From contig NC_007802.1 in assembly GCF_000013565.1 (NCBI RefSeq), positions 2,542,001 through 2,606,000 on the forward strand: a stretch of 64,000 nt of DNA, read 5' to 3'. Under the pieces are notes generated by a model. It did no database searches. It was not told the origin of the DNA and was given only the letters and a program-made list of their open reading frames with translations. A program made the translations under genes and the position numbers. Of this stretch, positions 14,198 to 63,836 are shown in pieces. This stretch comes from Jannaschia sp. CCS1 (GTDB taxonomy: Bacteria; Pseudomonadota; Alphaproteobacteria; Rhodobacterales; Rhodobacteraceae). The number at the start of each line of letters is the position of its first letter. The first letter of the stretch is position 1.

Positions 14198-14824
14198 ATG
14201 CACAAGCTGGATGAAGATTTGGTTGAACTCGGCATGGATGCACCGAAATCGGGGCGTATTCTGCTTCTGGCCTGCGGGGCGCTGGCCCATGAGGTCCTGG
14301 CCCTCACGCGCCTAAACGGTTGGGATCATTTGGGTTTACACTGCCTGCCGGCCAAATTGCACAACACACCGGACCAGATCCCCGACGCGGTGGAGGCGGC
14401 GGTGCGGGCGCGCAGGGCGGATTTTGAGCAAGTGTTCGTTCTCTACGCCGATTGCGGAACGGGTGGATTGTTACAGGCGCGCTGCGCGGAACTGGGGGTC
14501 GAGATGCTGGAAGGCCCCCATTGCTATTCCTTCTTTGAGGGGAATCAGGCGTTCGAGGCGCGCGGGGAGATGACGTGTTTCTACCTCACCGACTTTCTGG
14601 TGAAGCAGTTTGATGCCTTCGTGACGAAACCCCTGGGGTTGGATCGGTATCCAGAGCTGCGGGACATGTATTTCGGTAACTACACCACGCTGGTCTATCA
14701 GGCCCAGGTCGATGACCCGGCACTGACGGAACGGGCGCGGGTCTATGCAGAGCGGCTGGGGCTGGCGTTTGAGCGGCGGTTTACGGGGTATGGCGATCTG
14801 GAGACGGCGCTGGCGCGCCTGTAG
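14198..14824 (+). CDS. DUF1638 protein, probable methionine synthase accessory factor
   Basis: 208 residues. DUF1638 hallmarks: ILLLACGALAHEVLAL at the N-terminus, HCLPAKLHNTPDQIP, FVLYADCGTGG and GPHCYSFFEG, with several conserved Cys/His. DUF1638 genes are repeatedly found beside corrinoid methyltransferase systems. Here a homocysteine methyltransferase and a corrinoid protein are both within 6 kb, so a role in methionine synthase function or cobalamin reactivation is likely, though the exact chemistry is not established. The ATG at 14198 has AAAGG 7 bp upstream and is preferred over the GTG at 14183. Confidence 0.82.
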   Translation: MHKLDEDLVELGMDAPKSGRILLLACGALAHEVLALTRLNGWDHLGLHCLPAKLHNTPDQIPDAVEAAVRARRADFEQVFVLYADCGTGGLLQARCAELGVEMLEGPHCYSFFEGNQAFEARGEMTCFYLTDFLVKQFDAFVTKPLGLDRYPELRDMYFGNYTTLVYQAQVDDPALTERARVYAERLGLAFERRFTGYGDLETALARL

Positions 14825-14838
14825 CGTCCCCGCTCCTC

Positions 14839-14853
14839 CAGGCCTCCGGCCTG
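14839..14853. terminator. Short hairpin between convergent DUF1638 and fdsD genes
   Basis: CAGGCC-TCC-GGCCTG, 6-bp perfect stem in the 39-bp gap between two convergent stop codons. Plausible weak bidirectional terminator. Confidence 0.45.
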
Positions 14854-14863
14854 TCCTCGCCGC

Positions 14864-15067
14864 CTAAATCAGAGGGATGGCGTCACGCACCAGCGGGGCC
14901 AGATCACTATCGTCCCGGGCGGCACAGGCTTTGAGCGCATCGCGCATCTCTGGGCCCCAGAAGTCATTCAGATGGGCCGCCACACGCTCGGCCTGATCGC
15001 TCCCGGGTTGGGTGGCGAAGAAGCTGGCGATCTGGTTGGCCATACGGGTCAGTTTGTCATGCGGCAT
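14864..15067 (-). CDS. fdsD: Formate dehydrogenase delta subunit
   Basis: 67 residues, last gene of the formate dehydrogenase operon. The family pattern is clear: KLTRMANQIASFFATQPGSD, then VAAHLNDFWGPEMRDAL. FdsD is a small subunit needed for active soluble NAD-dependent formate dehydrogenase and its molybdenum cofactor insertion. The ATG at 15067 lies inside the end of fdhD (overlap of about 11 bp). Confidence 0.9.
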   Translation of the reverse strand: MPHDKLTRMANQIASFFATQPGSDQAERVAAHLNDFWGPEMRDALKACAARDDSDLAPLVRDAIPLI

Positions 15068-49764: not shown

Positions 49765-50595
49765 CTACATCATCTTGAAGACAGACGGATCCGGCCCTGT
49801 GCGCAGGCCCATATCCAGCGTCGCGATCTCGGACATTTCCGCTTCTGTCAGCGTAAAGTCGAATACATCCAGGTTTTCCGCCTGCCGATGGGCCTTCACC
49901 GAGCGTGGGATGACCGCATTGCCCAATTGCACATGCCATCGCAGGATCACCTGCACGGGGCTTTTGCCCGTGCGCGCAACCGCCTTGGTGATCGGCTCCG
50001 CCTCAAAGGAGCGCGCATTGCCAAGGGGCGTCCAGGCCTGCGTGACGACCCCGTGGGCCTTGTGAACTGCGCGCATCTCCGGCTGTTGCAACATCGGGTT
50101 CAGCTCAATCTGGTTGAGGACAGGCGCTTCTCCGGTCTCGGCGATGATCCGTTCCAGATGGTCCGCGTTGAAATTTGACGTCCCAATGGAGCGCATCAGC
50201 CCCTCATCACGCATATCCTGGAAGGCCTTCCATGTTTCCAGATACAGGTCCTGGCTCGGCACCGGCCAATGGATCAACACCAGATCCAACTGCTCCACAC
50301 CAATGGTTTTCAGGCTCCGCTCAACCGAGGCGCGGGCCTTCGCGGCCCCCTGCTCATTATTCCAGACTTTGGTGGTCACAAAGACCTCGTCCCGCGGAAG
50401 GCCTGAAGCACGCAGCCCCTCGCCCAAGCCCGCTTCATTCATATAGAGGTAAGCGCCGTCGATCATCCGGTAGCCGATCTCGATGGCACTGCGCACGGTC
50501 TCTCCGGCGATGTCCTGGGGCACCTGCCAGATCCCAAAGCCCACTTGCGGGATCTGCGCGCCGTCATGAAATTTGATCACCGGCCTATCGGTCAT
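49765..50595 (-). CDS. Aldo/keto reductase
   Basis: 276 residues. The catalytic tetrad is intact: Asp46, Tyr51, Lys76 and His109 (DGAYLY, TTKVW, LIHWP). The closest group is the 2,5-diketo-D-gluconate reductase (DkgA/B) type, NADPH-dependent. It is the last gene of a seven-gene ABC transporter operon, 21 bp after the ATPase gene, and presumably reduces a carbonyl produced from the imported compound. Ends 9 bp from the convergent regulator gene. Confidence 0.88.
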   Translation of the reverse strand: MTDRPVIKFHDGAQIPQVGFGIWQVPQDIAGETVRSAIEIGYRMIDGAYLYMNEAGLGEGLRASGLPRDEVFVTTKVWNNEQGAAKARASVERSLKTIGVEQLDLVLIHWPVPSQDLYLETWKAFQDMRDEGLMRSIGTSNFNADHLERIIAETGEAPVLNQIELNPMLQQPEMRAVHKAHGVVTQAWTPLGNARSFEAEPITKAVARTGKSPVQVILRWHVQLGNAVIPRSVKAHRQAENLDVFDFTLTEAEMSEIATLDMGLRTGPDPSVFKMM

Positions 50596-50616
50596 GTCTT
50601 TGATCCTTTTGGTTTT

Positions 50617-51678
50617 TCAGGCCGAGCCTACTCGTTGCCCGGTCGTAGCGTCAAACGGGTGCACCGTGTCTGCGGCGAAGCCCAACTGGATCGCATCGCC
50701 AGCTTTGGGCGGCGTGCGGCCCGAGGCCGTGGCGGTCATCTCTGTCCCGTCGATATCCACATAGACCAGCGTTTCCGAGCCGAGCGGTTCTGCCACCGTA
50801 ACCGTGCCCGTCAGGAAGGTTTCCCCCTCCGCCGTCAGATCCTCGGGCCGGATGCCAAGGTGCAACATGCGCCCCGTCGGCGCGTCCAGAGCGGGCATCG
50901 CGACCGTGTGGCCGTTGGGCAGGCGGACGCCCGCCTCGGTCCGCTCAACCGGCAAAAGGTTCATCGCGGGTGCGCCAATGAACTGCGCCACGAAGGTATT
51001 GGCGGGCGTATGATAGACATCCGCCGGGGTGCCGATCTGCTGGATATGACCGTCTTTCATGATCACGATACGGTCGGCCATGGTCATGGCTTCCACCTGA
51101 TCGTGGGTCACGAAAACCATCATCCGGCCCATCTTGGCGTGCAGCTTCTTGATTTCCAGCCGCATCTGGGTGCGCAACTGTGCATCGAGGTTCGACAGAG
51201 GCTCATCAAACAGAAACACCTCCGGGTCGCGCACCATGGCGCGCCCGATGGCGACGCGCTGCCGCTGCCCGCCCGAGAGTTGCGAGGGCTTGCGCTCCAA
51301 CAGGTCCGTCATGCCCAGGATACCTGCGACCTCTTCGATCCGCTCCGCCTTTTCGGGTTTGGACAGCTTGGCGGTCTTGAGGCCGAAGCCGATGTTCCGC
51401 CGCACGGACATATGCGGATAGATGGCGTAGTTCTGGAACACCATGGCGATGTTGCGCTCTTTGGGTTCCAGATTGTTGACCACGCGTCCACCGATCTCGA
51501 TCGTGCCCGAAGACACCTCCTCCAGCCCCGCAATCATCCGCAGCGTGGTGGATTTGCCGCAGCCCGACGGACCCACCAGCACGACGAACTCGCCGGGGTT
51601 CACGGTCAGGTTGATCGAGTGCAGGACCTCGGTCTCGCCGAATGTCTTGACGAGGTCGCGAAGGATCAGATCGGTCAT
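50617..51678 (-). CDS. CUT1 sugar ABC transporter ATPase (MalK/UgpC type)
   Basis: 353 residues. Walker A GPSGCGKST (36-44), Q-loop, signature LSGGQ (134-138), Walker B VFLFDEP and an H-loop in VFVTHDQVEAMTMADRI. A C-terminal MalK-like OB-fold domain follows (about 240-353). It energises the permease pair encoded in the same operon. Start overlaps the lyase gene stop by 4 bp. Confidence 0.95.
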   Translation of the reverse strand: MTDLILRDLVKTFGETEVLHSINLTVNPGEFVVLVGPSGCGKSTTLRMIAGLEEVSSGTIEIGGRVVNNLEPKERNIAMVFQNYAIYPHMSVRRNIGFGLKTAKLSKPEKAERIEEVAGILGMTDLLERKPSQLSGGQRQRVAIGRAMVRDPEVFLFDEPLSNLDAQLRTQMRLEIKKLHAKMGRMMVFVTHDQVEAMTMADRIVIMKDGHIQQIGTPADVYHTPANTFVAQFIGAPAMNLLPVERTEAGVRLPNGHTVAMPALDAPTGRMLHLGIRPEDLTAEGETFLTGTVTVAEPLGSETLVYVDIDGTEMTATASGRTPPKAGDAIQLGFAADTVHPFDATTGQRVGSA

Positions 51679-53165
51679 CGGGGGCCTTTCAGGAGGGCGT
51701 CGAATGCGGTGTCGAGGGCGCCGGCGGCGGCGTCACGACGGGTGAGGCGTGCTTTAAGGTCGCCTTTCAGGGCGTTGATATCACTCGAATAGATCTCGAA
51801 CGCTGCGTCCAGAGCGGCGGGTGCAGGTCCGCCGGTGCGATCCCGGCGCGAAACAAAGGTGCGCGCGTCTACCGCTTCGGCAAACTCTGCCGCGTTCAGC
51901 TTCGGCGGCTTGCCCGTGGCCGCCTCAAACGCCTGCGAGAAGGCGGCGTAGCCGCCGCCGAGGGGCCGAGCGTCAGCGATCACGGCGCGCGCCGTTTGCG
52001 ATGCAATGTCATGGGCCAGGCGGAAGCTCAGCCCCTCATCGCGCACCAGTGTGTCGGCCAATTCGGTAATCGTGATACAAGCCGCATCCGTCGTCTGTGC
52101 CACACGGTCCGCATTGATGGAGCAGGCTGGCAGAAACGCCGTCAGCAGATCAAATACGCGGGTCGCATGATCAAACGCGCCGTACCCCGCCTGCTGCACC
52201 TCGCCTTCGCTGTCGTTCATGTCCGTGAAGGGCGTGTTGTGCATCGTGTTGATCATGGCATCGCACCGCCCGGCCGCCACTGACGCAAGGTGGCGCAAAT
52301 GCTCAATCGGCACCGGGTTGCGCTTCTGCGGCATGATGGAGCTGATCTGGACCAAAGCGCGTGGCACATACAGCTGCCCCACCTCAAACGCGGACCAGAA
52401 CGCCATATCCTGCACCACTCGGCCCAGATGGATCATTGGCAGTTTCAACGCCGAGTAAAGACCCGTGACATAATCCACACCGGCGATACACCCGTAGGCA
52501 TTGACCCGAACGCCCGCGAAACCCAACAGCTCCGCCATCCGCTCTCGATCAATCGGGAAGCCAGAGGTGGTGATGGCCGCCGCGCCCATGGGGCAATGGT
52601 CGACATGCGTTATCGCCGTCTCCAGGCGCCTGGCGTCGGATACAAGCACTTCGATCACCGCAGAGAGATAATGGCCGAAGGTGGCGGGCTGCGCGGGCTG
52701 GCCGTGGGTGTAGGCGACAATGAGCGTGTCCCGCTCCGCCCGCGCCTTGTCCAACAGAGCCTGCGCGAGGGTCAACATGCGCGCCAAAGCGTTCTCCGCC
52801 CGGTCGCGAAGGGCCATCTTGAACATGGTGTGATCCATGTCGTTGCGCGACCGTGCCGTGTGCAGCGCCCCGCCCAGGTCGCCCAGACGGGCGCGCAACT
52901 CGGCCTCAACCAGGAAGAACCAATCCTCATGTTCTCCTGTGTAGTCAAGCGCTTGCCGGTCGACATTCGTCTCGATATCCGCCAGTGCCTCGGCGATGGC
53001 TTCGCCATCTTCTCGCAGCACTATTCCGGTCTCGACCAACATCACCAGATGGGCGCGGTTGATGCGGTCCATGTGGTCCGCGAAATGGATCTTCACGCCT
53101 TCAAACAGCGGCGCAAGGACGGTGTCGCGGTAAGTGGGATCGGGGAAGGTGCTTGTGTCCGTCAT
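51675..53165 (-). CDS. Argininosuccinate lyase-family enzyme in a sugar-transport operon
   Basis: 496 residues of the fumarase/aspartase superfamily. Family regions: HTARSRND (102-109), YTHGQPAQP (152-160), GAAAITTSGFPIDRERM (194-210) and the signature SSIMPQKRNP (275-284) carrying the catalytic serine loop. It resembles ArgH but differs in detail from housekeeping argininosuccinate lyase and lies between a VOC gene and the ABC ATPase, overlapping both by 4 bp. I therefore infer a catabolic lyase that removes fumarate from a succinyl- or malyl-type conjugate brought in by the transporter. A second, biosynthetic argH probably exists elsewhere; if not, this would be ArgH itself. Confidence 0.85.
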   Translation of the reverse strand: MTDTSTFPDPTYRDTVLAPLFEGVKIHFADHMDRINRAHLVMLVETGIVLREDGEAIAEALADIETNVDRQALDYTGEHEDWFFLVEAELRARLGDLGGALHTARSRNDMDHTMFKMALRDRAENALARMLTLAQALLDKARAERDTLIVAYTHGQPAQPATFGHYLSAVIEVLVSDARRLETAITHVDHCPMGAAAITTSGFPIDRERMAELLGFAGVRVNAYGCIAGVDYVTGLYSALKLPMIHLGRVVQDMAFWSAFEVGQLYVPRALVQISSIMPQKRNPVPIEHLRHLASVAAGRCDAMINTMHNTPFTDMNDSEGEVQQAGYGAFDHATRVFDLLTAFLPACSINADRVAQTTDAACITITELADTLVRDEGLSFRLAHDIASQTARAVIADARPLGGGYAAFSQAFEAATGKPPKLNAAEFAEAVDARTFVSRRDRTGGPAPAALDAAFEIYSSDINALKGDLKARLTRRDAAAGALDTAFDALLKGPR

Positions 53166-53602
53166 CGTCCCAGACCTGCCCGAACCGCGCCCGCATCATA
53201 GCACACAAGTTCCAACTCGTTGCCATCGGGATCAAGGAAGTCGAGCGTCATCGCCAAACCGTAATCGTTCACGTTGTCTGGGCTCAGCAGGCCGCCTGTC
53301 TGCGCCATTACCTCGGGGTCAGGAAGCCTGTCGAGAAACGCCAGCAAAGCCGAGGCATCGACCCGGAAGGCCACGTTGCGGTCAGCACCCTGGGCCGACG
53401 GGCCCGTGAACAGCGACAGGCAGTGATCGGCGGGCGCGCTGGCCGGGGCCAGAAACAGCGGATGGTCGTCCGCCAGATCCTCAGCACCCGGGCCGAGCGG
53501 ATGGAGGTCGAGCACCCGGGCGTACCATTGAACGGAGGCCGCCCGGTCGGCCACACAAAGGTGCACGTGGTCCAGCCGTGCGCCGGTGACAAGGGCGCTC
53601 AT
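53162..53602 (-). CDS. VOC-family (glyoxalase-fold) protein
   Basis: 146 residues. Vicinal-oxygen-chelate repeats: RLDHVHLCVADRAASVQWYARVLDLHPL and the C-terminal DFLDPDGNELELV; His and Glu candidates for metal binding are visible (LDHVHL, NELELV). Substrate unknown. Overlaps the permease gene upstream and the lyase gene downstream by 4 bp each, so it clearly belongs to the operon. Confidence 0.85.
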   Translation of the reverse strand: MSALVTGARLDHVHLCVADRAASVQWYARVLDLHPLGPGAEDLADDHPLFLAPASAPADHCLSLFTGPSAQGADRNVAFRVDASALLAFLDRLPDPEVMAQTGGLLSPDNVNDYGLAMTLDFLDPDGNELELVCYDAGAVRAGLGR

Positions 53603-54483
53603 CCCTTCAGGCCCGCCATCACGACGCCCCGGATGATGAAACGCTGGAAGATCAGGAAAAAGATCAGCGTCGGCAGGGTCGAGATTGCCGCCCCGGTCAT
53701 GATCAACTCCCATGCGACGTCCGCCTCGTCCCCGTAAGACGACAGGCCCACCGGCAAGGTATAGAGCGACGGATCCGTCGTTACGATCAGCGGCCAGAGG
53801 AACGCGGTCCAATTGCCCAAAAAGATGAAGATCGCCAAAGCCGCAAGGGCCGGTTTGACCATCGGCATCGCCACCTGCCACCAGATCTGGAACTCGTTCA
53901 ACCCGTCGATCCGCGCGGCCTCCAGAAAGTCATCGGGCACGGTCTCAAAGAATTGTTTCATCAGGAAGACGCCGAAAGCCGTCATCAGGCCGGGGAACAT
54001 GATGCCCCAGTAGCTGTCCAGCCAGCCAAGCGATTGGCTCATCATATACCACGGGATCACCAGCATTTCCGTGGGGATCATCAGGGTCGACAGGATCGCA
54101 ATGAAGATGATGTAGCGACCCCGAAAGCGGAATTTGCAAAGCGTGTAGCCCACGAGGCTGTCGAAAAAGAGCGACGACACCGTCGTGATCGCAGCAATGA
54201 TCAAAGAGTTGATGAACCAACCGAAAAAGCGCCCGTCCTCCAGCACGTAAGTATAATTTTCCAGCGTCGGCTCTTCCGGGATCAGGCCGATATTATAGAC
54301 CTCCCACGGCCACTTCATCGAGGTAGAGATCATGTAGGCCAGTGGCATGACCATCAGCAGGCCACCCCCGAATAGCAGCGCCCACCTAATAAACTGCGCG
54401 AAATTGCGTTTGCGCGCGGGTCCCGGCGCTTTCAGAAGCGTGTCGGACGAGGCGCGAACCGAGAGGTCGTCAACTGTTGTCAT
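53599..54483 (-). CDS. CUT1 sugar ABC transporter permease (MalG type)
   Basis: 294 residues, six TM helices. The EAA loop with coupling motif is EAARIDGLNEFQIWWQVAMPMVKPALA, and the family start is seen in LLFGGGLLMVMPLAYMISTSMK. Pairs with the MalF-type permease encoded 3 bp upstream. Confidence 0.94.
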   Translation of the reverse strand: MTTVDDLSVRASSDTLLKAPGPARKRNFAQFIRWALLFGGGLLMVMPLAYMISTSMKWPWEVYNIGLIPEEPTLENYTYVLEDGRFFGWFINSLIIAAITTVSSLFFDSLVGYTLCKFRFRGRYIIFIAILSTLMIPTEMLVIPWYMMSQSLGWLDSYWGIMFPGLMTAFGVFLMKQFFETVPDDFLEAARIDGLNEFQIWWQVAMPMVKPALAALAIFIFLGNWTAFLWPLIVTTDPSLYTLPVGLSSYGDEADVAWELIMTGAAISTLPTLIFFLIFQRFIIRGVVMAGLKG

Positions 54484-54486
54484 GGC

Positions 54487-55431
54487 TCAACGGTCCCTCA
54501 GAAGGCGCAGTTGGATCAGGCTCACGATCAGCAGGATCACGAACAACACAACCGTTTGGGCCGCGGCATAGCCCATGTCGAAGCTGTCGAATGCGGTCTG
54601 GTAGATCATCAACACCAGCGGTTTGGTGGAGTTCAGCGGCCCGCCCGGGTTGGCCGACGTCATGTTGAACACATGGTCGAAAATGCGCAGGAAGCCGATG
54701 GACGACAGGACCACGACGAACACGATGGTGGGCCGCAGAAGCGGCAGGGTGATTTCCCACAGCACCGTCCAGGTGGAGACGCCGTCGATCTCTGCAGCCT
54801 CATAGAAGGTGCGTGGGATGGCCCGCAAACCCGCCATGAAGATGATGATCTGAAAGCCCAAACCAGCCCAGATCGCAGGCGCGAGGATGGAGGGCAGCGC
54901 ATTGGTCGTGCTGTCCAGGAAGTCGATCTGCGGGATGCCGAACGTCGCCAGCCAGTTGTTGAACAGGCCAATCGGCACGTCCTGATAGAACCAGCGCCAG
55001 ACCCAGGCCATCGCCACAGCCGACGTCATGAAGGGCACGAAATAGAGCGCCCGGATCGTGCCGTGCATGAACCGGACCTGATCGAGATGATAGGCGATCA
55101 CGAAGGCGATCACGAGGCTGACGGGCGTGCCCAGAAGCAAGTAAACAAAGGTGTTGCGGAAGACCTGCCAGAAAACAGGATCGGAAAACAGCACCCGGTA
55201 ATTGTCGAGGCCCGCCCAGGTGCGGTCCCCCAGAAGGTTCCATTCCTGAAACGACAGAACCATGGCGTTGCCGGTCGGGTAGAAGCGAATGACGACGTAG
55301 AAGAGGACCGGGACCGCAAGAAACGCCCAGGCCCAAAGCGTCCGCTTTTGCATGATGCTCAGACCGTCTGCCGGGGCGGCGGCGGGGCGGTGCACTGCGT
55401 CAGATGTGTCGGGGGCAGAGGTGCTCGCCAT
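54487..55431 (-). CDS. CUT1 sugar ABC transporter permease (MalF type)
   Basis: 314 residues, six TM helices, with the EAA loop YEAAEIDGVSTWTVLWEITLPLLRPTIV. The N-terminal LWAWAFLAVPVLFYVVIRFYPTGNAMVLSFQEW is typical of UgpA/MalF-like permeases. Separated from the binding-protein gene by 79 bp containing a hairpin. Confidence 0.94.
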   Translation of the reverse strand: MASTSAPDTSDAVHRPAAAPADGLSIMQKRTLWAWAFLAVPVLFYVVIRFYPTGNAMVLSFQEWNLLGDRTWAGLDNYRVLFSDPVFWQVFRNTFVYLLLGTPVSLVIAFVIAYHLDQVRFMHGTIRALYFVPFMTSAVAMAWVWRWFYQDVPIGLFNNWLATFGIPQIDFLDSTTNALPSILAPAIWAGLGFQIIIFMAGLRAIPRTFYEAAEIDGVSTWTVLWEITLPLLRPTIVFVVVLSSIGFLRIFDHVFNMTSANPGGPLNSTKPLVLMIYQTAFDSFDMGYAAAQTVVLFVILLIVSLIQLRLLRDR

Positions 55432-55462
55432 GGGCGGGGCCTTCGGTCAAAAGGATGAAAGA

Positions 55463-55491
55463 GGCCCCGGACGCAGGGATCGCCCGGGGCC
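55463..55491 (-). terminator. Hairpin between binding-protein and permease genes
   Basis: GGCCCCGG and CCGGGGCC arms (8 bp) with a 13-nt loop. As in other ABC operons, such a structure may protect the binding-protein mRNA and reduce permease expression. Confidence 0.5.
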
Positions 55492-55510
55492 AGGTGCAAC
55501 TGGAGAGGTC

Positions 55511-56770
55511 TCAGTCGCTGTAGTATTCGTTGAGCAGGGTCTGCTCGGCCTCGGCCGCGATGGTCAGGCTTTCGCCCGGATCCATATCTTGCAGCTGCAC
55601 CCGCTCCACCATGTCGACCATGCCCTGGCGCTGCGCGCTCTCGTCGGCGAAGATCGTGGTGTTGGCGTATTCAAGGCCGCGAATAAACGGGCCAAACACC
55701 GGATCGTTGGCGTTTTCTTCCGTCATGCCGACCTCTGCGCGGGCGGGCAGTTCGCCCACGGTTTCAAGCCAGATCTCCATCGCCTCAGCCGAGGTGATAT
55801 ACTCCATGAACAGGACGGAGGCGTCGTATTCGGGACCTTCAGCAGACGACGTGATCGCGTTCACCCAGTAGGATGAATAGTTTGATCGCACCCCGTCATT
55901 GTTGGCCGGAAGCTCCGTCACGCCCCATTGCAGGCCCCGCTCTCCGTTCAGCGCGCCGATGCGGAATGATCCGTCGATATGAAACGCGGCGCGGCCCGCG
56001 CGGAAGGCCGCCTGGGGTTCATCCATGAAGCCCGATTGCGTCACGCCCTGCTCTTCCAGGCCAAGATAGAAGTCCAATGCCGCGCGGCCTGCGTCGGTGT
56101 CGTAATTCACCGTCTGATAGCCGTCGGTGTAGGGCTCACCCCCCATCTGGCGGACAAGCACTTCGCGGAACCAATGGTGATCCTGAGCGGTCATGCCGGT
56201 GGTGAAACCCACCTGCGTGATGTTGCCTGCGCCATCACGCTCCGTCGTGGCGGCGGCGGCGGCGACCAGTTCGTCCAGCGTCGTGGGGACTTCGACGCCG
56301 GCGGCATCCAGAATGCGCTCATTATAGAACAAGGCCAGCGACCGCACGGCGGTGGGCAGGGCGAAATATTGGCCATCACGCTCCATGGCTTGGACCATGG
56401 GGAAGAACTCGGCCTCCACCATCTCGGGCGAGAAGGTATCTACGGGAAGTGGCTGGATCAGGCCCTCGTCGATGTAATCGTTCAACCAACCGTAGAAGAG
56501 CTGCACGATATCGGGACCCTCGCCCGACGGCACGGCAACGGCCGTCCGCGTGCGATAATCCGCATAGGGGAAGTGGGTCATTTCCACGTTGATGTTCGGG
56601 TTCGCGGCCTCAAAATTCTCGATCAGCTGCTCCATCGCATTCACGCGGGCCTCAAAGAAATACTGCCAATATTCAATCGTGACCTCTTGGGCCGTTACGG
56701 CACCCGCGGCACTTAATGCGGCGGCGGAGGTGGCGAGGGCAGCAAGGGTGTTCCGGGTTCTATGCAGCAT
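55511..56770 (-). CDS. CUT1 ABC transporter sugar-binding protein
   Basis: 419 residues with a signal peptide (TLAALATSAAALSAAGAVTAQ). Extracellular solute-binding family 1: VTIEYWQYFFEARVNAMEQLIENFEAANPNINVEM, GEGPDIVQLFYGWLNDYIDEGLIQPL and AFHIDGSFRIGALNG. Ligand unknown; related proteins bind oligosaccharides or glycerol-3-phosphate. First gene of the seven-gene operon; the 128-bp divergent region is shared with the ROK regulator. Confidence 0.93.
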   Translation of the reverse strand: MLHRTRNTLAALATSAAALSAAGAVTAQEVTIEYWQYFFEARVNAMEQLIENFEAANPNINVEMTHFPYADYRTRTAVAVPSGEGPDIVQLFYGWLNDYIDEGLIQPLPVDTFSPEMVEAEFFPMVQAMERDGQYFALPTAVRSLALFYNERILDAAGVEVPTTLDELVAAAAATTERDGAGNITQVGFTTGMTAQDHHWFREVLVRQMGGEPYTDGYQTVNYDTDAGRAALDFYLGLEEQGVTQSGFMDEPQAAFRAGRAAFHIDGSFRIGALNGERGLQWGVTELPANNDGVRSNYSSYWVNAITSSAEGPEYDASVLFMEYITSAEAMEIWLETVGELPARAEVGMTEENANDPVFGPFIRGLEYANTTIFADESAQRQGMVDMVERVQLQDMDPGESLTIAAEAEQTLLNEYYSD

Positions 56771-56852
56771 GAGTCTCTCCCTGAGATGATATGTCTGGAC
56801 GTTATTTTATGGGGGCCCGAACTCTCTTGGCCGGTGCCATTAGAATGACGCT

Positions 56853-56866
56853 AACGCAGCAGCGTT
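56853..56866. promoter_or_regulatory. Inverted repeat in the ROK/ABC divergent promoter
   Basis: AACGC-AGCA-GCGTT, 5-bp perfect arms, 33 bp upstream of the ROK regulator start. Overlapping ACGCT and AGCGT segments give a second way of pairing. It is the best candidate for the operator of the ROK regulator in this short region. Confidence 0.4.
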
Positions 56867-56898
56867 GAGCTATCAAGTAAGTTGAGTTATTCGGGGGT

Positions 56899-58068
56899 AT
56901 GGCCAGTGCCTCGCCCCCTCCCGGCTCCAATGCCCTTCGCAGTCGAACCTACAACCGTGGGCTGGTTCTGGGTCATCTGCGGCGGGAGGGAGAGGCCGGG
57001 CGCGCCGAGATCGCGCGGGCTTCGCGGCTCAGCATTCAAGCGGTCAGCAACATCATCCAAGACCTCGTGGAGGGAGGCTGGGTGGTGGAAGCGGGCAAGC
57101 GCGAGGGACAGCGCGGCCTGCCCGCCGTCACCTACGCGCTCAGCAGTGGCACGCATATCGCGATGGGGGTGGAGATCCGACCCGATGCCGTTCTGGCCGC
57201 ATGGATTGATCTTGGGGGGCATGTGCTGCACCGGGACCGGCTGGCGCTTCCGTCGGCCCGGCCTGAGCATGTGGGGCCGCTGATCGCGCAACTTCCCACG
57301 CGGGGCGACGCGGCGGGTGTCCCCCATAGCGCTGTTTTCGGCGCCGGTGTGGTGATGCCGGGACCGATTGGGCAAACGGGCCTGTCAGACCTGACGACGC
57401 AATTGCCCGGTTGGGGCGACGTGTCCCCGGAGACGGTGTTGCGGGACGCCCTCGGTGTGCCCGTGACGCTGGAAAACGACGCCAACGCCGCCGCCATGGC
57501 CGAACGCATTCTGGGCGCGGCGCAAGGGCTTGGCACCTTTGCCTGCCTCTATTTCGGGACCGGGTTAGGCCTTGGTCTGGTGATCAACGGAGAGGTCTTC
57601 CCCGGCGCGTTCGGCAATGCCGGGGAAATCGGTCATATCCCCGTCGTCTCATCCAACGGTGCGTGCAGTCTGGAGACGTTGGCCAGTCGCGTGTCCCTCG
57701 TCCGGGCGCTGGAAGCCGATGGGATCACTGCGCGCACTGTGGATGATCTGGCCCTGCAACATCAGGCCCGCCCCCCCGCGATGGAGGCTTGGCTGCAAAG
57801 TGCGGCTGGCGCGCTGAGCCCCGCCGTGCAGATATTGGAAAACCTCATTGACCCGGAGGCCATCGTGATGACCGGCGCCATGCCCCCTGCCCTGCTGGAC
57901 GAACTGGCGGGCCGCGTCACGCTGCCGGAGCGCTCGGTCTCCAACCGCGCCGACCGGGCCCGCCCCCGCCTGATTGCGGGCACCGCGGGCCGCATGGCCG
58001 CGACCCTTGGGGCGGCGGCGCTGGTCGTGAATTCCGCCCTCTCGCCCCGTCTTATGGACACACAATAG
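56899..58068 (+). CDS. ROK-family transcriptional regulator (NagC/XylR type)
   Basis: 389 residues. N-terminal winged helix (EIARASRLSIQAVSNIIQDLVEGGWVVEAG, about 35-70) and a ROK sugar-binding domain (about 85-385) with LENDANAAAMAERILGAA and LYFGTGLGLGLVINGEVFPGAFGNAGEIGHIPV. The zinc motif CxCGxxGCxE usual in ROK proteins is shortened to GACSLE, so the first two cysteines are lost. It is divergent from the ABC operon and 10 bp upstream of the PIG-L gene, so it likely controls both. Confidence 0.9.
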   Translation: MASASPPPGSNALRSRTYNRGLVLGHLRREGEAGRAEIARASRLSIQAVSNIIQDLVEGGWVVEAGKREGQRGLPAVTYALSSGTHIAMGVEIRPDAVLAAWIDLGGHVLHRDRLALPSARPEHVGPLIAQLPTRGDAAGVPHSAVFGAGVVMPGPIGQTGLSDLTTQLPGWGDVSPETVLRDALGVPVTLENDANAAAMAERILGAAQGLGTFACLYFGTGLGLGLVINGEVFPGAFGNAGEIGHIPVVSSNGACSLETLASRVSLVRALEADGITARTVDDLALQHQARPPAMEAWLQSAAGALSPAVQILENLIDPEAIVMTGAMPPALLDELAGRVTLPERSVSNRADRARPRLIAGTAGRMAATLGAAALVVNSALSPRLMDTQ

Positions 58069-58078
58069 GACCCTCCCC

Positions 58079-60385
58079 ATGCCCAACACCACACCGTCGC
58101 CTGTTCAGGCCCGCATCCTCGCGGAAGCACACGATCCGCTGATCGCCCGCATCTGGCGTGCCATGGCAGGTCTGCGCTCGGTCGTGGGGTTCATGAACAC
58201 CGGCGCCCACCCCGATGACGAGACGACGGCAATGTTGGCGGCGCTGTGGCTGCGCGACGGGGTGAACCTGTCCTATGCCTGCTCCACCCGGGGCGAAGGG
58301 GGGCAAAACGACATCGGGACGGAGGCGGGGCCGGATCTGGGCGCATTGCGCACGGCAGAGATGGAGCGGGCCTCGGACGTGCTCGACATGGTGCTTTACT
58401 GGCACGGACAGTCGGCGGATGACACGATAACCGATTTCCGCTTTTCCAAATCCGGCAAGGAGACGATGGCGATCTGGGGCCGAGAGCGGTTGATGCAACG
58501 GTTTGTGGAAATCATCCGCACCCAGCGCCCCGATATCATCTGCCCCACCTTCCTCGACATTCCTGGCCAGCATGGCCACCACCGCGCCATGACGGAGGCC
58601 GCCCACGATGTGATCGCGGCGGCGGCGGACCCGGATTTCGCCTGCGACCTGCCGGTTTGGCAGGTATCCAAGCTCTACCTACCGGCCTTCTCCGGGGCGG
58701 GCGGATCCTATGACGACGAGGTTCCCCCGCCGCCCGCGACCGTGACCGTCGCGGCCTCGGGGCGCGATCCGATCCTTGGCATGAGTTATGAGCGGATCGG
58801 CCAATGGTCCCGGCAATTTCATCGCACGCAAGGCATGGGCCGGTGGGTGGCAGCTGGGGAGGAACGGGATTGGCCGCTGCATCTGGCTTGGTCCAATGTG
58901 GGCGAAGACGCGGGCGCGGTCACCGATCACCTGCCGCAGACGTTGGCTGATATCGGGTTGAGCGACGCCCAACGTGCCGTGGATGCGGTGATCGCCGCCT
59001 TCCCCGACGTCTGCGTCATGGGACGCCTGGGGTCCGAGGCTTACGCCGCGCTGATGGCCGCAAACGTCACGCCCGAGCACCGCCACCGGTTGGAGCGCAA
59101 ACGGCTCCAGATGGCGCGATTGCTGCATTTGGTGGAGGGTATCTCCGCCCGCGCCCTGCCTGCGCGCTGCGCTGTGGAACCGGGGACATCCGTGGCAGTG
59201 TCGACCGAAGTTGCGGGCGACGCAGAGGTCGTGCTTGTGCCCCGCGACGGAATGCAGGTCACGGCGGACGGGTTGCAGATCAACACAGACGCCGCCCCCA
59301 CTGACCCCTACCCCGATACGTTCGACCCGCTGATCCCGCGCCTGCCTGCCGCACGGGTCCGCGCGCAGGTCCATGGCGTTCACGTGGACCGGGATGTGAC
59401 ACTGGAACAACCGGTTCTGGTGCTGCCGCTCCCCCGGGCCAACCTGTCGACAGAACGGGCGATCCTGAACCTTGCGCGGCCCGACCGCAGCCTGTCTGTT
59501 GATGTGACGGCCCAGGACGCGGCCTTTGATTTGCCGCCCGGGTTTGCGCAGACCTGGTCCACCGACGGCGCGACGCTGACCGTGCCCGCAGATGCGACGG
59601 AGGGCTTGCATGTTCTGCCCGTCATGGTCGGGAGCACGCCTGCCCGGACCGCCAAAGTGTTGGATCACGCGCATATTTCGCAAACGCTCAGCCACCGCCC
59701 GGCGGTGTTTTCGCTGCGGCTGGCCAACGTCGCCCTGCCGGATGCCCGGGTGGCGTATATCGGCGCGGGCAACGACCGCGTTGCGCCTGCATTGCGCGCG
59801 GTGGGCATGGACGTGACGGATCTGAGCGACGCGGACCTGTCGCGCGCCGCGCCATTTGCGGGCTATGACACCGTGTTGGTCGGCGTGTTCGCCTACCGGT
59901 TCCGCGGCGCGTTGGCTGCGGTAATCGGTACGCTGAACGATTGGGTGAAGCACGGCGGCACGCTAGTGACGCTCTATCACCGCCCGGGCGACAATTGGGA
60001 CCCGCAGGAGACCCCGCCTGCGCCAATGGCCATCGGCTCCCCCTCCCTGCGCTGGCGGATCACGGATGCAGCGGCCGAAGTGACGGTGTTGCAGCCCGAG
60101 CACCCCGTGTTCCAGGGACCCAACACGATTGGTCCAGAGGATTGGGCGGGCTGGCAGAAGGAACGCGGGCTATATTTTGCCAAGTCTTGGGACGGGGTCT
60201 ATGCGCCGCTTCTCAGCATGTCAGACCCGGATGAACAGCCCTTGGAGGGCGGGCTTCTGGTGGGCCAGATCGGGCACGGCTGCCATGCCCATGTCGCGTT
60301 GAACCTGCACCACCAGTTGGAGCATCTGGTGCCGGGCGCCTACCGGCTGACGGCGAACCTTCTGGCCCTGCGCGGCAGCGGTTAA
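58079..60385 (+). CDS. Large PIG-L-family deacetylase with extra C-terminal domains
   Basis: 768 residues. The N-terminal PIG-L/LmbE zinc deacetylase domain (about 35-260) contains the metal motif AHPDDE (43-48) and GQHGHHRAMTEAAHDV. A middle beta-rich region (about 370-560) and a C-terminal domain with a class I glutamine amidotransferase-like fold (ARVAYIGAGNDRVAPALRAVGMDV and NDWVKHGGTLVTLYHRPGDNWDP) follow. Enzymes of the N-terminal family remove acetyl groups from GlcNAc-containing molecules. No signal peptide is seen, so it should act in the cytoplasm after uptake. It is co-transcribed with the ROK regulator; its stop overlaps the convergent rhaA stop by 4 bp. Confidence 0.87.
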   Translation: MPNTTPSPVQARILAEAHDPLIARIWRAMAGLRSVVGFMNTGAHPDDETTAMLAALWLRDGVNLSYACSTRGEGGQNDIGTEAGPDLGALRTAEMERASDVLDMVLYWHGQSADDTITDFRFSKSGKETMAIWGRERLMQRFVEIIRTQRPDIICPTFLDIPGQHGHHRAMTEAAHDVIAAAADPDFACDLPVWQVSKLYLPAFSGAGGSYDDEVPPPPATVTVAASGRDPILGMSYERIGQWSRQFHRTQGMGRWVAAGEERDWPLHLAWSNVGEDAGAVTDHLPQTLADIGLSDAQRAVDAVIAAFPDVCVMGRLGSEAYAALMAANVTPEHRHRLERKRLQMARLLHLVEGISARALPARCAVEPGTSVAVSTEVAGDAEVVLVPRDGMQVTADGLQINTDAAPTDPYPDTFDPLIPRLPAARVRAQVHGVHVDRDVTLEQPVLVLPLPRANLSTERAILNLARPDRSLSVDVTAQDAAFDLPPGFAQTWSTDGATLTVPADATEGLHVLPVMVGSTPARTAKVLDHAHISQTLSHRPAVFSLRLANVALPDARVAYIGAGNDRVAPALRAVGMDVTDLSDADLSRAAPFAGYDTVLVGVFAYRFRGALAAVIGTLNDWVKHGGTLVTLYHRPGDNWDPQETPPAPMAIGSPSLRWRITDAAAEVTVLQPEHPVFQGPNTIGPEDWAGWQKERGLYFAKSWDGVYAPLLSMSDPDEQPLEGGLLVGQIGHGCHAHVALNLHHQLEHLVPGAYRLTANLLALRGSG

Positions 60386-61617
60386 CGGCCCGACACGGAG
60401 GCGTCGTAATCCCCCAGCGCCGACGACAGGGCCAGCCCGGTGGGCACGGAGTGACGGTCGCAGAATTCCTGCCAGATAGCGCTCGCAGGCAGATCCTTGA
60501 CCTCCTCGGTCAGGATCAGGCGCTTGGTGTAATCCAGCGCGGCTTCAGCGGTTTGCAGCTCCTCTCGCGGCATCAACAGCGCGCGCAGCAGCGCCTTTTG
60601 CATGTTGCGCGTGCCGATCACCCAGGCCGCCGTGCGACTGATCGTGGCGTCGAAGAAGTCGAGCCCGATGCGCGTGCGGTCCAGAAGATCTGCGAAGACC
60701 AATTCCTGCGCCATCGCAAAAATATCATCGTTAAGCAGGATCACATGGTCACTGTCCCACCGCATCGGGCGCGAGACGTGGAGCAGAATTTCATCCAGTG
60801 ACAGGGCCACTGCGCTCAGCTTATCGGCCACATTCTCCGTCGGGTGGAAATGTCCCATGTCCAGGCACAGAAGGGTTTTGTTCCGGATCGCATAGCCGAG
60901 ATAAAATTCATGGCTTCCCACGGTGCAAGCCTCCACCCCGATGCCAAAGAGTTTGCTTTCCACCGCATCGCGCATATGCGGCTGCGCGTCCACCAGCATC
61001 GCATCAAGGGACGCTTCCAGCCGGGACCGTGCGGCCATGCGGTCCACGGGGATGTCCTTGTACCCGTCCGGCACCCAGATGTTGTTGACACAGGCATTGC
61101 CTTGAGCCGCGCCCATGGCCGACGCGATCTCTCGCGAGCGTTTGCCATGTTCGATCCAGAAGTCACGGATGCCTTGATCCGGATGCGACAGCGTCAGGTT
61201 ATCATCGGCCTTGGCATGGGCGAAGAAGGTGGGGTTGAAGTCGAGGCCCAGGTTCTGGTCGGTCGCCCAATCGATCCAGGGTGCGAAATGCGCCACCTCA
61301 ATCTCGTCCCGGTCGGGCGTGGCGTCGGTGTCCATGTACATCGCATGCAGGTTGAGGCGATGGCTGCCGGGGATCTGGGCGTAGGCGAATTCCAGATCGG
61401 CGCGCAGCTCAGCTGGTGTGCGGGCCCGGCCCGGGTGGTTGCCGGTGGCCTGAATCCCGCCGCCCGACGCGCCTGTCTTGGCCTCAAATCCCACAACGTC
61501 ATCGCCCTGCCAGCAATGCATGGAGATCGAGACCTCAGCCAAACGCGCCATCGCGGCCTCGGTGTCCACGCCCCAATCAGCGAAGGTCTGGCGGGCGGTG
61601 TCGTAGAGGGCGCTCAT
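60382..61617 (-). CDS. rhaA: L-rhamnose isomerase
   Basis: 411 residues, similar in length and sequence to E. coli RhaA: VSISMHCWQGDDVVGFE, GGIQATGNHPGRARTPAELRADLE, NIWVPDGYKDIPVDRMAARSRL, VESKLFGIGVEACTVGSHEFYLGYA, CLDMGHFHPTENVADKLSAV and AAWVIGTRNMQKALLRALL. It converts L-rhamnose to L-rhamnulose. The start overlaps the aldolase/dehydrogenase gene stop by 4 bp. A rhamnulokinase gene is not in the window. Confidence 0.96.
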   Translation of the reverse strand: MSALYDTARQTFADWGVDTEAAMARLAEVSISMHCWQGDDVVGFEAKTGASGGGIQATGNHPGRARTPAELRADLEFAYAQIPGSHRLNLHAMYMDTDATPDRDEIEVAHFAPWIDWATDQNLGLDFNPTFFAHAKADDNLTLSHPDQGIRDFWIEHGKRSREIASAMGAAQGNACVNNIWVPDGYKDIPVDRMAARSRLEASLDAMLVDAQPHMRDAVESKLFGIGVEACTVGSHEFYLGYAIRNKTLLCLDMGHFHPTENVADKLSAVALSLDEILLHVSRPMRWDSDHVILLNDDIFAMAQELVFADLLDRTRIGLDFFDATISRTAAWVIGTRNMQKALLRALLMPREELQTAEAALDYTKRLILTEEVKDLPASAIWQEFCDRHSVPTGLALSSALGDYDASVSGR

Positions 61618-63716
61618 CTTGTGAACGCCTGCGCGTTGCCCGCATCCACGTTGATGATGTTGCCGGTGGATTTGGCAGACAGGTCAGCGGCAAAGAAATA
61701 CGCGGCCTCAGCGATGTCTCCGGGCAGGACGGAACGCTTCAACATGGAACGGTCACGGTACATCTCTTCTAACCCCGCCTTGTCGGTCCCGTAGGTTGAC
61801 GCGCGCTGATCCAGCCATTCGCCCTGCCAGATCTTGGACCCTTGCAGGACTGCATCGGGGTTCACGACGTTGACCCGTATCCCGGCCCCCGCCCCTTCCA
61901 GCGCCAGACAACGCGCCAGATGCAACTCACTGGCCTTGGCGGTGCAATAGGCCGATGCGTTCGGACTGGCAGCCAGGCCATTTTTGGAGCCGATGAACAC
62001 GACAGAGCCCCCGATGTCCTGAGCGCGCAGTATCTTGAACGCCGCCCGGCTGACCAGAAAATATCCCGTCGACAGGATGTCCATGTTCTTCTGCCACAGT
62101 GCCAACGATGTCTCTTCCACCGGAGCGGACGACGCGATGCCTGCGTTGGACACCAGGATGTCGATCCCGCCATAGGCGACGGACGCGTCCGCGAACGCGC
62201 GCGCCACGGCATCTTCGCTGGTGACGTTCATGACAACCGCGCGGACGACATCGTCGGAGAAGCGGTCTGAGAGGGCCGCGGCCGTGGCCTCAAGCGCGCC
62301 CTCGTCAATGTCCGCAAGGACCACGCAGGCCCCTTCCGCCAGATAGCGCGCGGCGGTGGCCGACCCGATGCCCCCCGCCCCACCGGTGACCAGTGCGACA
62401 CGCCCCGCCAGCGATTTCGGCTTCGGCATCCGTTGCAGCTTGGCCTCCTCCAACAGCCAATATTCGATGTCGAAGGCCTCCTGCTCCGGCAGGCCGCAGT
62501 AGGTGCTGACGGCGCTCGCGCCGCGCATCACGTTGATGGCGTTGACGTAGAACTCGGCCGAGATCCGCGCCGTGGCCTTGTCTTTGGCGAAGGTCACCAT
62601 GCCGACGCCGGGGATCAGATAGACGACCGCATTGGGATCACGCAGGGCGGGACTGTCGTCATGTTTGCAGCGCTCGTAGTAGGCGGCATACTCATCGCGG
62701 TACGAGGCGACTTGCGCGGGCAATCCGTCCAGAACCGCGTCCACGTCCGGCTTGGCCGGATCGAAGCCCACCACAAGCGGGCGAATTTTCGTGCGCAGGA
62801 AATGATCCGGACAGGAGGTGCCGAGGGCGGCCAAGGCCTCCATATCGCGGGCGTTCACAAACTCCAGGACCGTATCGCTGTCCTCAAAATGTCCGACCAT
62901 GTGCTGCGCGCCCGAAACCATGCCCCGGATTGCAGGCATCAGACGGGCAGCTACGGCCCGGCGGTCTGTCGACGGCAAAGACGTGTGAACCGCGCCTCCA
63001 AACGCAGGCACATCGCGGGTTTTCGCCTCGAACCAATCCATCGCCTTTTGGATGACATCGACGGTCAGGGCGTAGCAGGCCTCCGCATCATCATCCCAGG
63101 TGAACAGCCCGTGGCTTTCCAGAACGACCCCCTTGGCGTCCGGGTTCTTCAGGCAGAAATCCTCCAGCCACAGCCCCAGCTCATAGCCCGGCCGCTTCCA
63201 GGGCAGCCAGCCGATGTCGTCGCCAAAAATCTCTGCGGTCAGGGCCTTGCTGTCCGCCGCCGCCGCAATGGCGATGATCGCGTCGGGGTGCATGTGGTCG
63301 ACGTGTTTCTTCGGCACATAGGCATGGAGCGGCGTGTCGATGGAGGCGGCGCGCGTGTTCAGGTTGAAGGTGCAGTGGGGCAGCAGGCCAACCATCTCAT
63401 CCTCGAACGCCACCCCGCGATAGATCCCCTTCAAGGCGCGCAGCTTATCCATGTAGAGCGTCGCGAAGCCGTCCATCTTGATGGAGCCCACGTCGCCACC
63501 CGATCCCTTGACCCACAGGACCTCGACCATATCGCCGGTCAACGGATCCTGTTCCATCACCTTGGCGGACGTGTTGCCGCCGCCGTAGTTGGTAATCCGC
63601 TTGTCGGACCCCAGAAGGTTGGAGCGGTAGAGCAGCCTTTTCGACTCGGACATCGCGGCCGCTTTGCCCGCGTCCCAAAGGGTCTTCAGGCGTGCGTTTT
63701 CAGTGGTTTCCAACAT
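61614..63716 (-). CDS. Bifunctional rhamnulose-1-phosphate aldolase/lactaldehyde (short-chain) dehydrogenase
   Basis: 700 residues. The N-terminal class II aldolase domain (about 25-400) has TNYGGGNTSAKV, the zinc-binding HVDHMHPDA (138-146) and a later ESHGLFTW. The C-terminal short-chain dehydrogenase (about 425-700) has RVALVTGGAGGIGSATA and catalytic Tyr-x-x-x-Lys in SAYCTAKASELH. The fused enzyme splits rhamnulose-1-phosphate to DHAP and L-lactaldehyde and then oxidises or reduces the aldehyde. ATG at 63716 follows GGGGGAGG; the frame extends 27 codons further without protein-like sequence. Confidence 0.94.
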   Translation of the reverse strand: MLETTENARLKTLWDAGKAAAMSESKRLLYRSNLLGSDKRITNYGGGNTSAKVMEQDPLTGDMVEVLWVKGSGGDVGSIKMDGFATLYMDKLRALKGIYRGVAFEDEMVGLLPHCTFNLNTRAASIDTPLHAYVPKKHVDHMHPDAIIAIAAAADSKALTAEIFGDDIGWLPWKRPGYELGLWLEDFCLKNPDAKGVVLESHGLFTWDDDAEACYALTVDVIQKAMDWFEAKTRDVPAFGGAVHTSLPSTDRRAVAARLMPAIRGMVSGAQHMVGHFEDSDTVLEFVNARDMEALAALGTSCPDHFLRTKIRPLVVGFDPAKPDVDAVLDGLPAQVASYRDEYAAYYERCKHDDSPALRDPNAVVYLIPGVGMVTFAKDKATARISAEFYVNAINVMRGASAVSTYCGLPEQEAFDIEYWLLEEAKLQRMPKPKSLAGRVALVTGGAGGIGSATAARYLAEGACVVLADIDEGALEATAAALSDRFSDDVVRAVVMNVTSEDAVARAFADASVAYGGIDILVSNAGIASSAPVEETSLALWQKNMDILSTGYFLVSRAAFKILRAQDIGGSVVFIGSKNGLAASPNASAYCTAKASELHLARCLALEGAGAGIRVNVVNPDAVLQGSKIWQGEWLDQRASTYGTDKAGLEEMYRDRSMLKRSVLPGDIAEAAYFFAADLSAKSTGNIINVDAGNAQAFTR

Positions 63717-63836
63717 GCATCCTCCCCCGCCTGGCACAGCCTGCCCGGCTATCAATTCACCCACAAGTTGCGGAGGCGTGGGGTCAAAGTCAATCACAAA
63801 CCGTCACAATCTGTCGCGCTGCGCCACAGAATGACC

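Follow-up and report, generated by a model that had tools for sequence, protein, structure and literature searches.

A conserved gene cluster, in which a transporter, a lyase, a regulator and a putative deacylase recur together, was found in Jannaschia sp. CCS1 (genome 4.4 Mb) within positions 2,542,001–2,606,000 of contig NC_007802.1, the 64,000-nucleotide stretch that we call the window and whose own numbering is used below. The conserved unit comprises a CUT1-type ATP-binding cassette (ABC) transporter, a lyase of the argininosuccinate lyase (ASL)/fumarase superfamily, a ROK-family regulator and a long PIG-L/LmbE-family protein, often with a PfkB-family kinase and an EamA-type transporter. 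We tentatively propose, at slightly less than an even chance and from sequence and structure models, that it serves the ROK-regulated uptake and breakdown of an N-acyl-glucosamine conjugate bearing a malyl (1,2-dicarboxyethyl) group, most likely N-acetylglucosamine-malate (GlcNAc-malate), glucosamine-malate (GlcN-malate) or a relative derived from bacillithiol.

The lyase and the PIG-L protein are conserved with the transporter

The core genes form two divergent arms. On the minus strand lie a UgpC/MalK-like ATPase (50617–51678), the lyase (P0001; 51675–53165), a MalG/UgpE-like permease (53599–54483), a MalF/UgpA-like permease (54487–55431) and a solute-binding protein (P0003; 55511–56770), assigned by domain and family searches and, for the lyase, also by motifs and a structure model. 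The plus strand carries the ROK-family protein (56899–58068) and, 10 bp downstream, the 768-residue PIG-L protein (P0002; 58079–60385); the divergent interval between the binding protein and ROK genes is 128 bp. A first-pass annotation of this DNA had described nine genes here, counting an aldo/keto reductase and a VOC protein among them, and all of its open reading frames and domains were recovered. Its statement that the minus-strand genes are joined "mostly" by 4-bp overlaps was slightly strong, as such overlaps occur at three of the six junctions (ATPase/lyase, lyase/VOC and VOC/permease), the remaining genes being separated by 3 bp (permease/permease), 21 bp (reductase/ATPase) and 79 bp (permease/binding protein).

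A survey of 295 genomes from the host's family, Rhodobacteraceae, was searched for both enzymes. The lyase was present in 44 genomes (E ≤ 1e-90, strict enough to exclude ordinary ArgH), and PIG-L matches were obtained in 45, of which 43 were near full length (G136 as two pieces); partial matches came from G227 (fragments) and G234 (weak). Both proteins are encoded in 43 of the 44 lyase genomes, with 1.9–4.9 kb between them as called. The corresponding Fisher P of ~4e-51, with G227 and G234 scored negative, is indicative only, since the genomes are related. Conservation of both enzymes alongside the transporter means that the neighbourhood comparison, named in the first-pass annotation as a possible refutation, does not refute it.

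Gene content was counted in two sets of loci. The first consists of the window, the neighbourhoods of the other 43 lyase genomes and the G227 fragment, in which genes were called and clustered; counts for these 45 loci are from tblastn at E ≤ 1e-4, a loose threshold at which paralogues may be counted. The second was selected by PIG-L under bit-score limits and holds the best 80 of 486 related stretches, partly overlapping the genomes of the family survey. Both permeases and the ATPase were found in all 45 loci, the binding protein in 44, the ROK regulator in 38, a PfkB kinase in 29 and an EamA gene in 22. Among the 80 loci the binding protein occurs in 78, the MalF/UgpA-like and MalG/UgpE-like permeases in 77 and 75, the ATPase in 75, the lyase in 74, the ROK regulator in 68, PfkB in 51 and EamA in 48. 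The six of these PIG-L loci that lack a lyase include four that run into contig edges (L146, L155, L173 and L188) and two real exceptions, L144 and L193, long contigs that carry the long PIG-L and in which no nearby lyase was found. The PIG-L proteins most similar to that of the window are from Roseicyclus and Roseibacterium (66–68% identity), in a listing from which very close records of the host were possibly excluded.

Beyond the family, a class-wide sample of 385 genomes gave the lyase in 12, from seven families (E ≤ 1e-120), and it is also present in two records titled Granulosicoccaceae and Chromatiales. With the PIG-L alignment as query (E ≤ 1e-30), the long PIG-L was found in 5 of 398 phylum-wide genomes, all of the host's family, and is therefore uncommon outside it. 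Plasmid searches returned 32 records with the lyase (E ≤ 1e-60) and 21 with the long PIG-L (E ≤ 1e-20); ten of the 32 were inspected. Ten loci were newly fetched from the class-wide sample on the basis of their lyase, and PIG-L lies near it in seven, as does a CUT1 transporter in seven. Three loci of one genus have the lyase and PIG-L genes as divergent neighbours (L244:8992–12950, L245:8925–12933 and L246:9356–13272), with SBP_bac_5 binding proteins nearby (one tested per locus). Opp-type permeases were seen in L245, and none of the three loci matched the cluster's CUT1 genes. With SBP_bac_5 genes standing in for CUT1 at these loci, the two enzymes look like the core of the system, able to accompany a peptide-type transporter. 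In a further locus, from Terrarubrum, a metallo-β-lactamase-fold hydrolase gene (L206:7196–8044) lies between the binding protein and the permeases and NAD biosynthesis genes follow; no PIG-L is annotated within the stretch inspected.

Features of the two enzymes

The PIG-L protein matches its Pfam family at 63.5 bits against a cut-off of 28.2, over residues 41–178, and continues in a long extra region. The AHPDDE motif is present in all 121 aligned PIG-L sequences and GQHGHHR, the third metal ligand motif, in 119 (some genomes being counted twice). The structure model (predicted local distance difference test, pLDDT, 91.5) matched MshB first, followed by diacetylchitobiose deacetylases and BshB; a ThuA-like protein lower in the ranking presumably corresponds to the C-terminal part of the model. 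No signal peptide was seen by eye, so the protein should act inside the cell. Mycothiol, the pathway of the top fold match MshB and of Mca, was considered as a substrate and rejected: it carries inositol, not malate, so there is no dicarboxylate on which the lyase could act. As regards known activities, a 2014 review describes the PIG-L members then known as acting on N-acetyl- or N-acyl-glucosamine cores, and BshB as deacetylating a malate conjugate, printed there as "maleate" (PMC4101496).

The structure model of the lyase (pLDDT 89.1) has ethylenediamine-N,N'-disuccinate (EDDS) lyase as its best fold match (template modelling score 0.83), followed by ASLs. The superfamily signature loop SSxMPxKxN is present (as SSIMPQK), and across 113 lyase sequences (44 from the family survey and 69 from records of the 80-locus type, some genomes appearing twice) RSRND is found in 113, THGQPAQP in 111 and TPF(T/A)DMND in 112. 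These retained motifs agree with the first-pass placement of the enzyme in a fumarate-releasing superfamily. The tripeptide NPV follows the catalytic loop in all 113 sequences; ArgH and EDDS lyase have NPD at the same place. The EDDS lyase of Chelativorans BNC1, like ASL, shares the fold, the catalytic loop and RSRND with the cluster lyase, but the latter keeps amino-sugar gene partners and an incomplete set of substrate-proximal residues. Among the residues placed near the substrate in a report on EDDS lyase are R112, N113, Q159, N288, D290 and Y320 (PMC12363623). By HMMER alignment, R112, N113 and N288 are conserved as R107, N108 and N283, and the other three of the six are replaced, with His154, Val285 and Met316 facing Q159, D290 and Y320.

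More distant versions of the system occur in the genus Deinococcus. In D. actinosclerus and D. deserti, plasmids encode a ROK protein, the lyase, a binding protein, two permeases, a short PIG-L and a carbohydrate kinase (PfkB by Pfam in D. actinosclerus), with no ATPase gene annotated in either stretch; D. psychrotolerans has the lyase and transporter only, within the stretch inspected. Identity to the window proteins is 44–55% for the permeases, 41–42% for the binding protein and 35–37% for the lyase. A phylogeny of 25 lyases places Deinococcus beside the cluster lyases (support 89/86), but long branches meet there, so kinship was judged by shared motifs and transporter similarity; the Deinococcus lyases have NPV and VPFGDIND. 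Since this orthologous set has a PIG-L of another subfamily (best model MshB, at 160 and 145 bits, below cut-off), it seems that PIG-L proteins of more than one type can serve here. D. actinosclerus has in addition a second PIG-L of 742 residues (L207:9476–11704) between the lyase and the binding protein, with an NPCBM-associated domain, a CBM9-like domain and, by eye, a signal-peptide-like start.

Partner genes point to an amino sugar

Relatives of the cluster have recruited genes of amino-sugar metabolism. Deaminase-like genes of two unrelated kinds, NagB-II-like (9 of the 45 loci; 7 of the 80) and NagB-like (5 of the 45), together occur in 14 of the 45 loci and never in the same one. A chance estimate of 3e-18 for this frequency is crude, as it presumes two copies in every genome and takes no account of common descent; in 2 of the 14 loci, L077 and L080, the deaminase gene sits amid other genes on the opposite strand. 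Kinases are likewise of two kinds, PfkB, which in relatives takes the position of the aldo/keto reductase of the window, and ROK (2 of the 80 loci). The same partners are found on plasmids, in the order lyase–ATPase–ROK protein–nagB in Paroceanicella and lyase–ATPase–ROK protein–NagB-II-like gene in Roseomonas, with no PIG-L in the stretches inspected. Because relatives add both deaminase types and both kinase types, an amino sugar is the likely carbon skeleton, with glucosamine indicated as product, in line with the amino sugar that the first-pass annotation had proposed as part of the substrate. The families that recur in at least 4 of the 45 loci include no glycoside hydrolase.

The host has a separate amino-sugar locus (L219:3174–12261) containing ABC transporter genes, an N-acetylmuramic acid-6-phosphate etherase, a GntR-type regulator, a NagB-II-like gene and NagA; a glucosamine kinase was looked for in the host genome and none was identified. 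The cluster resembles nag/gam catabolism in its ROK regulator and in the kinases and deaminase-like genes recruited in relatives. It differs in that the amino sugar would arrive as a conjugate, to be freed by the lyase, and in that PIG-L would replace NagA.

Transport and regulation

The CUT1 importer is complete in composition, with a binding protein (Pfam SBP_bac_1/SBP_bac_8), two BPD_transp_1 permeases and a MalK/UgpC ATPase. Five arginines of the binding protein (Arg42, Arg143, Arg202, Arg207 and Arg270) are identical in all 41 family members aligned and, should they line the ligand pocket, would fit an anionic ligand. Arg143 is kept in three Deinococcus orthologues and absent from the binding protein of the host's nag locus. 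Wherever an EamA gene was called (18 of 18 cases) it lies 3' of PIG-L in the same orientation, and the two genes overlap in 15; for the single EamA protein tested, Pfam assigns EamA and no NCBIfam family was found at E ≤ 1e-8.

The ROK-family protein is a probable regulator. Its ROK domain scores 114.3 bits against a Pfam cut-off of 22.9, and winged-helix matches fall slightly below theirs (MarR_2, 25.0 against 27; HTH_24, 21.4 against 21.9). Repeats of TTGAGTTA were seen in the region between the binding protein and ROK genes, with the half-site present in 27 of 32 such regions and a strict double site in 14; the latter has 16 occurrences across 868 kb of loci. In the window the operator-like site TTGAGCTATCAAGTAAGTTGAGTTA occupies positions 56865–56889 (plus strand). 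Of 18 whole genomes, 16 contain the 25-base pattern, with two mismatches allowed, exactly once, always ~1.2 kb upstream of PIG-L, although the 18 were hand-picked from the 44, many because the motif had already been seen there; the reversed pattern gave no match in the 18. As the single site in each genome sits upstream of PIG-L, both divergent arms are probably under one shared operator, for which this is the predicted site.

Proposed pathway

GlcNAc-malate or a bacillithiol relative fits best because the system combines a predicted de-N-acylase, a lyase of a fumarate-releasing type and, in relatives, putative glucosamine kinases and deaminases, with no recurrent glycosidase. The CUT1 importer would take up the intact conjugate, and the PIG-L metalloenzyme would deacylate the glucosamine nitrogen, which bears an acetyl (or cysteinyl) group. 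The lyase would then eliminate fumarate from the malyl group and free glucosamine, so that no glycoside hydrolase is needed to split the sugar–acid bond. Glucosamine-6-phosphate would be made by a PfkB or ROK kinase, as encoded in relatives, and converted by a NagB- or NagB-II-like enzyme to fructose-6-phosphate and ammonia for entry into glycolysis; in the host, the NagB-II-like and NagA genes are those of the separate locus. Fumarate would join the tricarboxylic acid cycle. The ROK protein would control both arms through the one operator, the EamA protein, encoded in about half of the relatives, may carry a by-product such as cysteine or a cysteine conjugate out of the cell, and clusters without PIG-L could import an already deacylated form.

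Several observations weigh against this proposal. The fold search with the PIG-L model also matched GalB, a 4-carboxy-2-hydroxymuconate hydratase, so the PIG-L fold extends beyond glucosamine amides. By analogy with the related lyases discussed below, ASL-like lyases may go with N-linked sugar-aspartates, and Val285 at the position of D290 in EDDS lyase gives no more than a weak hint as to the leaving group. The lyase also passes the NCBI argH model TIGR00838, at 289.5 bits against 279.5. For the partner genes, the best models are NagB-II (220–313 bits against 430) and NagB (219–223 against 236.9), all below cut-off; kinase specificity is putative, and no PfkB match reaches any NCBIfam cut-off. 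Deaminase genes are absent from 31 of the 45 loci, and nine lack both kinase and deaminase by gene calling (L111 has both by tblastn), and in L110 an in-frame stop breaks the NagB-like gene (14281–15054), one of the five of that kind, into two neighbouring open reading frames. In G026, which belongs to the 44 genomes with the lyase, no PIG-L domain was found at any position. On plasmids, 11 of the 32 lyase records have no long PIG-L match; two of these have a short PIG-L and three, from Haladaptatus, present a different context.

Alternative substrates and roles

Within the proposal, the more specific version is that the system scavenges bacillithiol-family thiols or what is left of them as GlcN-malate, with PIG-L as amidase or deacylase, the lyase producing fumarate and glucosamine, and EamA exporting the cysteine part. 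We regard this as possible, if on balance doubtful. Bacillithiol is cysteinyl-glucosaminyl-malate, and its synthase BshC was detected in none of the 39 lyase genomes tested of the 44, whereas it was found in the controls (Bacillus subtilis, Thermus and Deinobacterium); these hosts would therefore have to obtain the compound from their surroundings. Polaribacter MED152 is a marine bacterium. This Bacteroidetes strain is described as making an N-methyl form of bacillithiol (PMC6282198). With the enzymes of bacillithiol biosynthesis and recycling (BshB and Bca) the cluster shares the PIG-L fold, the AHPDDE motif and the proposed substrate core, but it would be catabolic and adds a lyase and an importer, and its PIG-L is much longer and falls far under the BshB cut-offs (26 against 195 bits for the BshB2 model).

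The main rival is an N-linked sugar-aspartate of the Heyns or Amadori type, such as N-(dicarboxyethyl)glucosamine, from which the lyase would release fumarate and a free amino sugar; PIG-L would remove an acyl group at another site of the compound, or work on a side product. Known ASL-family enzymes mostly cleave C–N bonds, and the closest fold to the cluster lyase is EDDS lyase. Related lyases of a different ASL-like branch, moreover, occur on Rhodobacter capsulatus pRCB133 (L225:16431–17930) and a Cereibacter sphaeroides plasmid (L226:11944–13443). Both adjoin a SIS protein for which fructoselysine-6-phosphate deglycase is the single model listed (~80 bits against a cut-off of 430). The C. 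sphaeroides locus also holds a fructoselysine-6-kinase-like gene, an asparaginase and an amino-acid transporter, which suggests that these two loci serve fructosyl-aspartate use with fumarate release. Such fructosyl-amino-acid (frl/fra) systems resemble the cluster in the uptake and cleavage of sugar amines. The R. capsulatus lyase, however, lacks TPFTDMND and NPV, unlike the cluster lyases, which form a different branch, and a dicarboxyethyl group on the glucosamine nitrogen would leave PIG-L no acetamido group. The cluster deaminases are NagB-like; a FrlB/FraB-type deglycase was rejected for the cluster SIS gene, as the two proteins tested reach 220 and 278 bits with the NagB-II model, against 35 bits or no match with that of the deglycase. 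Overall we consider the N-linked substrate unlikely.

An ordinary GlcNAc oligosaccharide or glycoside could alternatively be imported and deacetylated by PIG-L as in diacetylchitobiose pathways, with the lyase performing an unrelated dicarboxylate step. The diacetylchitobiose deacetylases among the PIG-L fold matches favour this, as does the CUT1 binding protein, whose best PDB sequence match is GacH, an acarbose/maltose binder. The recurrent families include no glycosidase, however, the lyase is retained where PIG-L is missing, and the invariant arginines of the binding protein, if they line its pocket, would favour an anionic ligand, all of which makes a plain oligosaccharide distinctly improbable.

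Two members that the first-pass annotation had included in the system did not hold up as such. The DkgA-like aldo/keto reductase (49765–50595, minus strand) is particular to the window, being found in 1 of the 45 loci and in none of the 80 at 250 bits; it is probably outside the system and was rejected as a pathway enzyme. The VOC/glyoxalase-fold protein (53162–53602, minus strand; Pfam Glyoxalase), in 7 of the 45 loci with the window included and 9 of the 80, appears to be an optional accessory. In the window both share a strand and tight spacing with the core genes, but that both are essential pathway enzymes is, given these counts, very improbable.

Hardly credible is a role for the lyase as a second argininosuccinate lyase in a cluster serving arginine or argininosuccinate, for although it just exceeds the TIGR00838 cut-off and annotators use the name argH, the host's other ArgH (C2:495313) is 34% identical to it and scores 585 bits, the arginine-side region of the lyase reads HNTPFTDMNDSEGE, against KGLPLTYSKDMQEDKE in that ArgH, the context is one of transporter and amino-sugar genes, and PIG-L would be left without a role. 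Many annotated plasmid records label the lyase argH or argininosuccinate lyase. Given the far higher score of the other ArgH, this automatic naming is probably misleading.

Neighbouring genes and significance

The 3' end of the PIG-L gene overlaps by 4 bp that of a convergent L-rhamnose isomerase gene (RhaA, 60382–61617, minus strand), which is followed by a RhaD-like gene at 61614–63797; neither clustered with a gene from the other loci of the 45-locus set. These rhamnose genes, the EamA-type transporter, the kinase and deaminase partners and the shared operator-like site had been overlooked in the first-pass annotation, which is otherwise supported in part. In the open-licence PMC literature, no title or abstract among the matches listed concerned this cluster or GlcN-malate breakdown, which leaves the absence of such work unproven.

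The cluster is common to many marine and soil bacteria. Its lyase spans seven families in the class-wide sample, with more distant versions in Deinococcus, but commonly goes under the name argH. If it does free an amino sugar by releasing fumarate, this would be an unusual means of cutting a sugar conjugate, and, should GlcN-malate or bacillithiol prove to be the substrate, it would become possible to test what happens in soil and sea to an abundant bacterial thiol.

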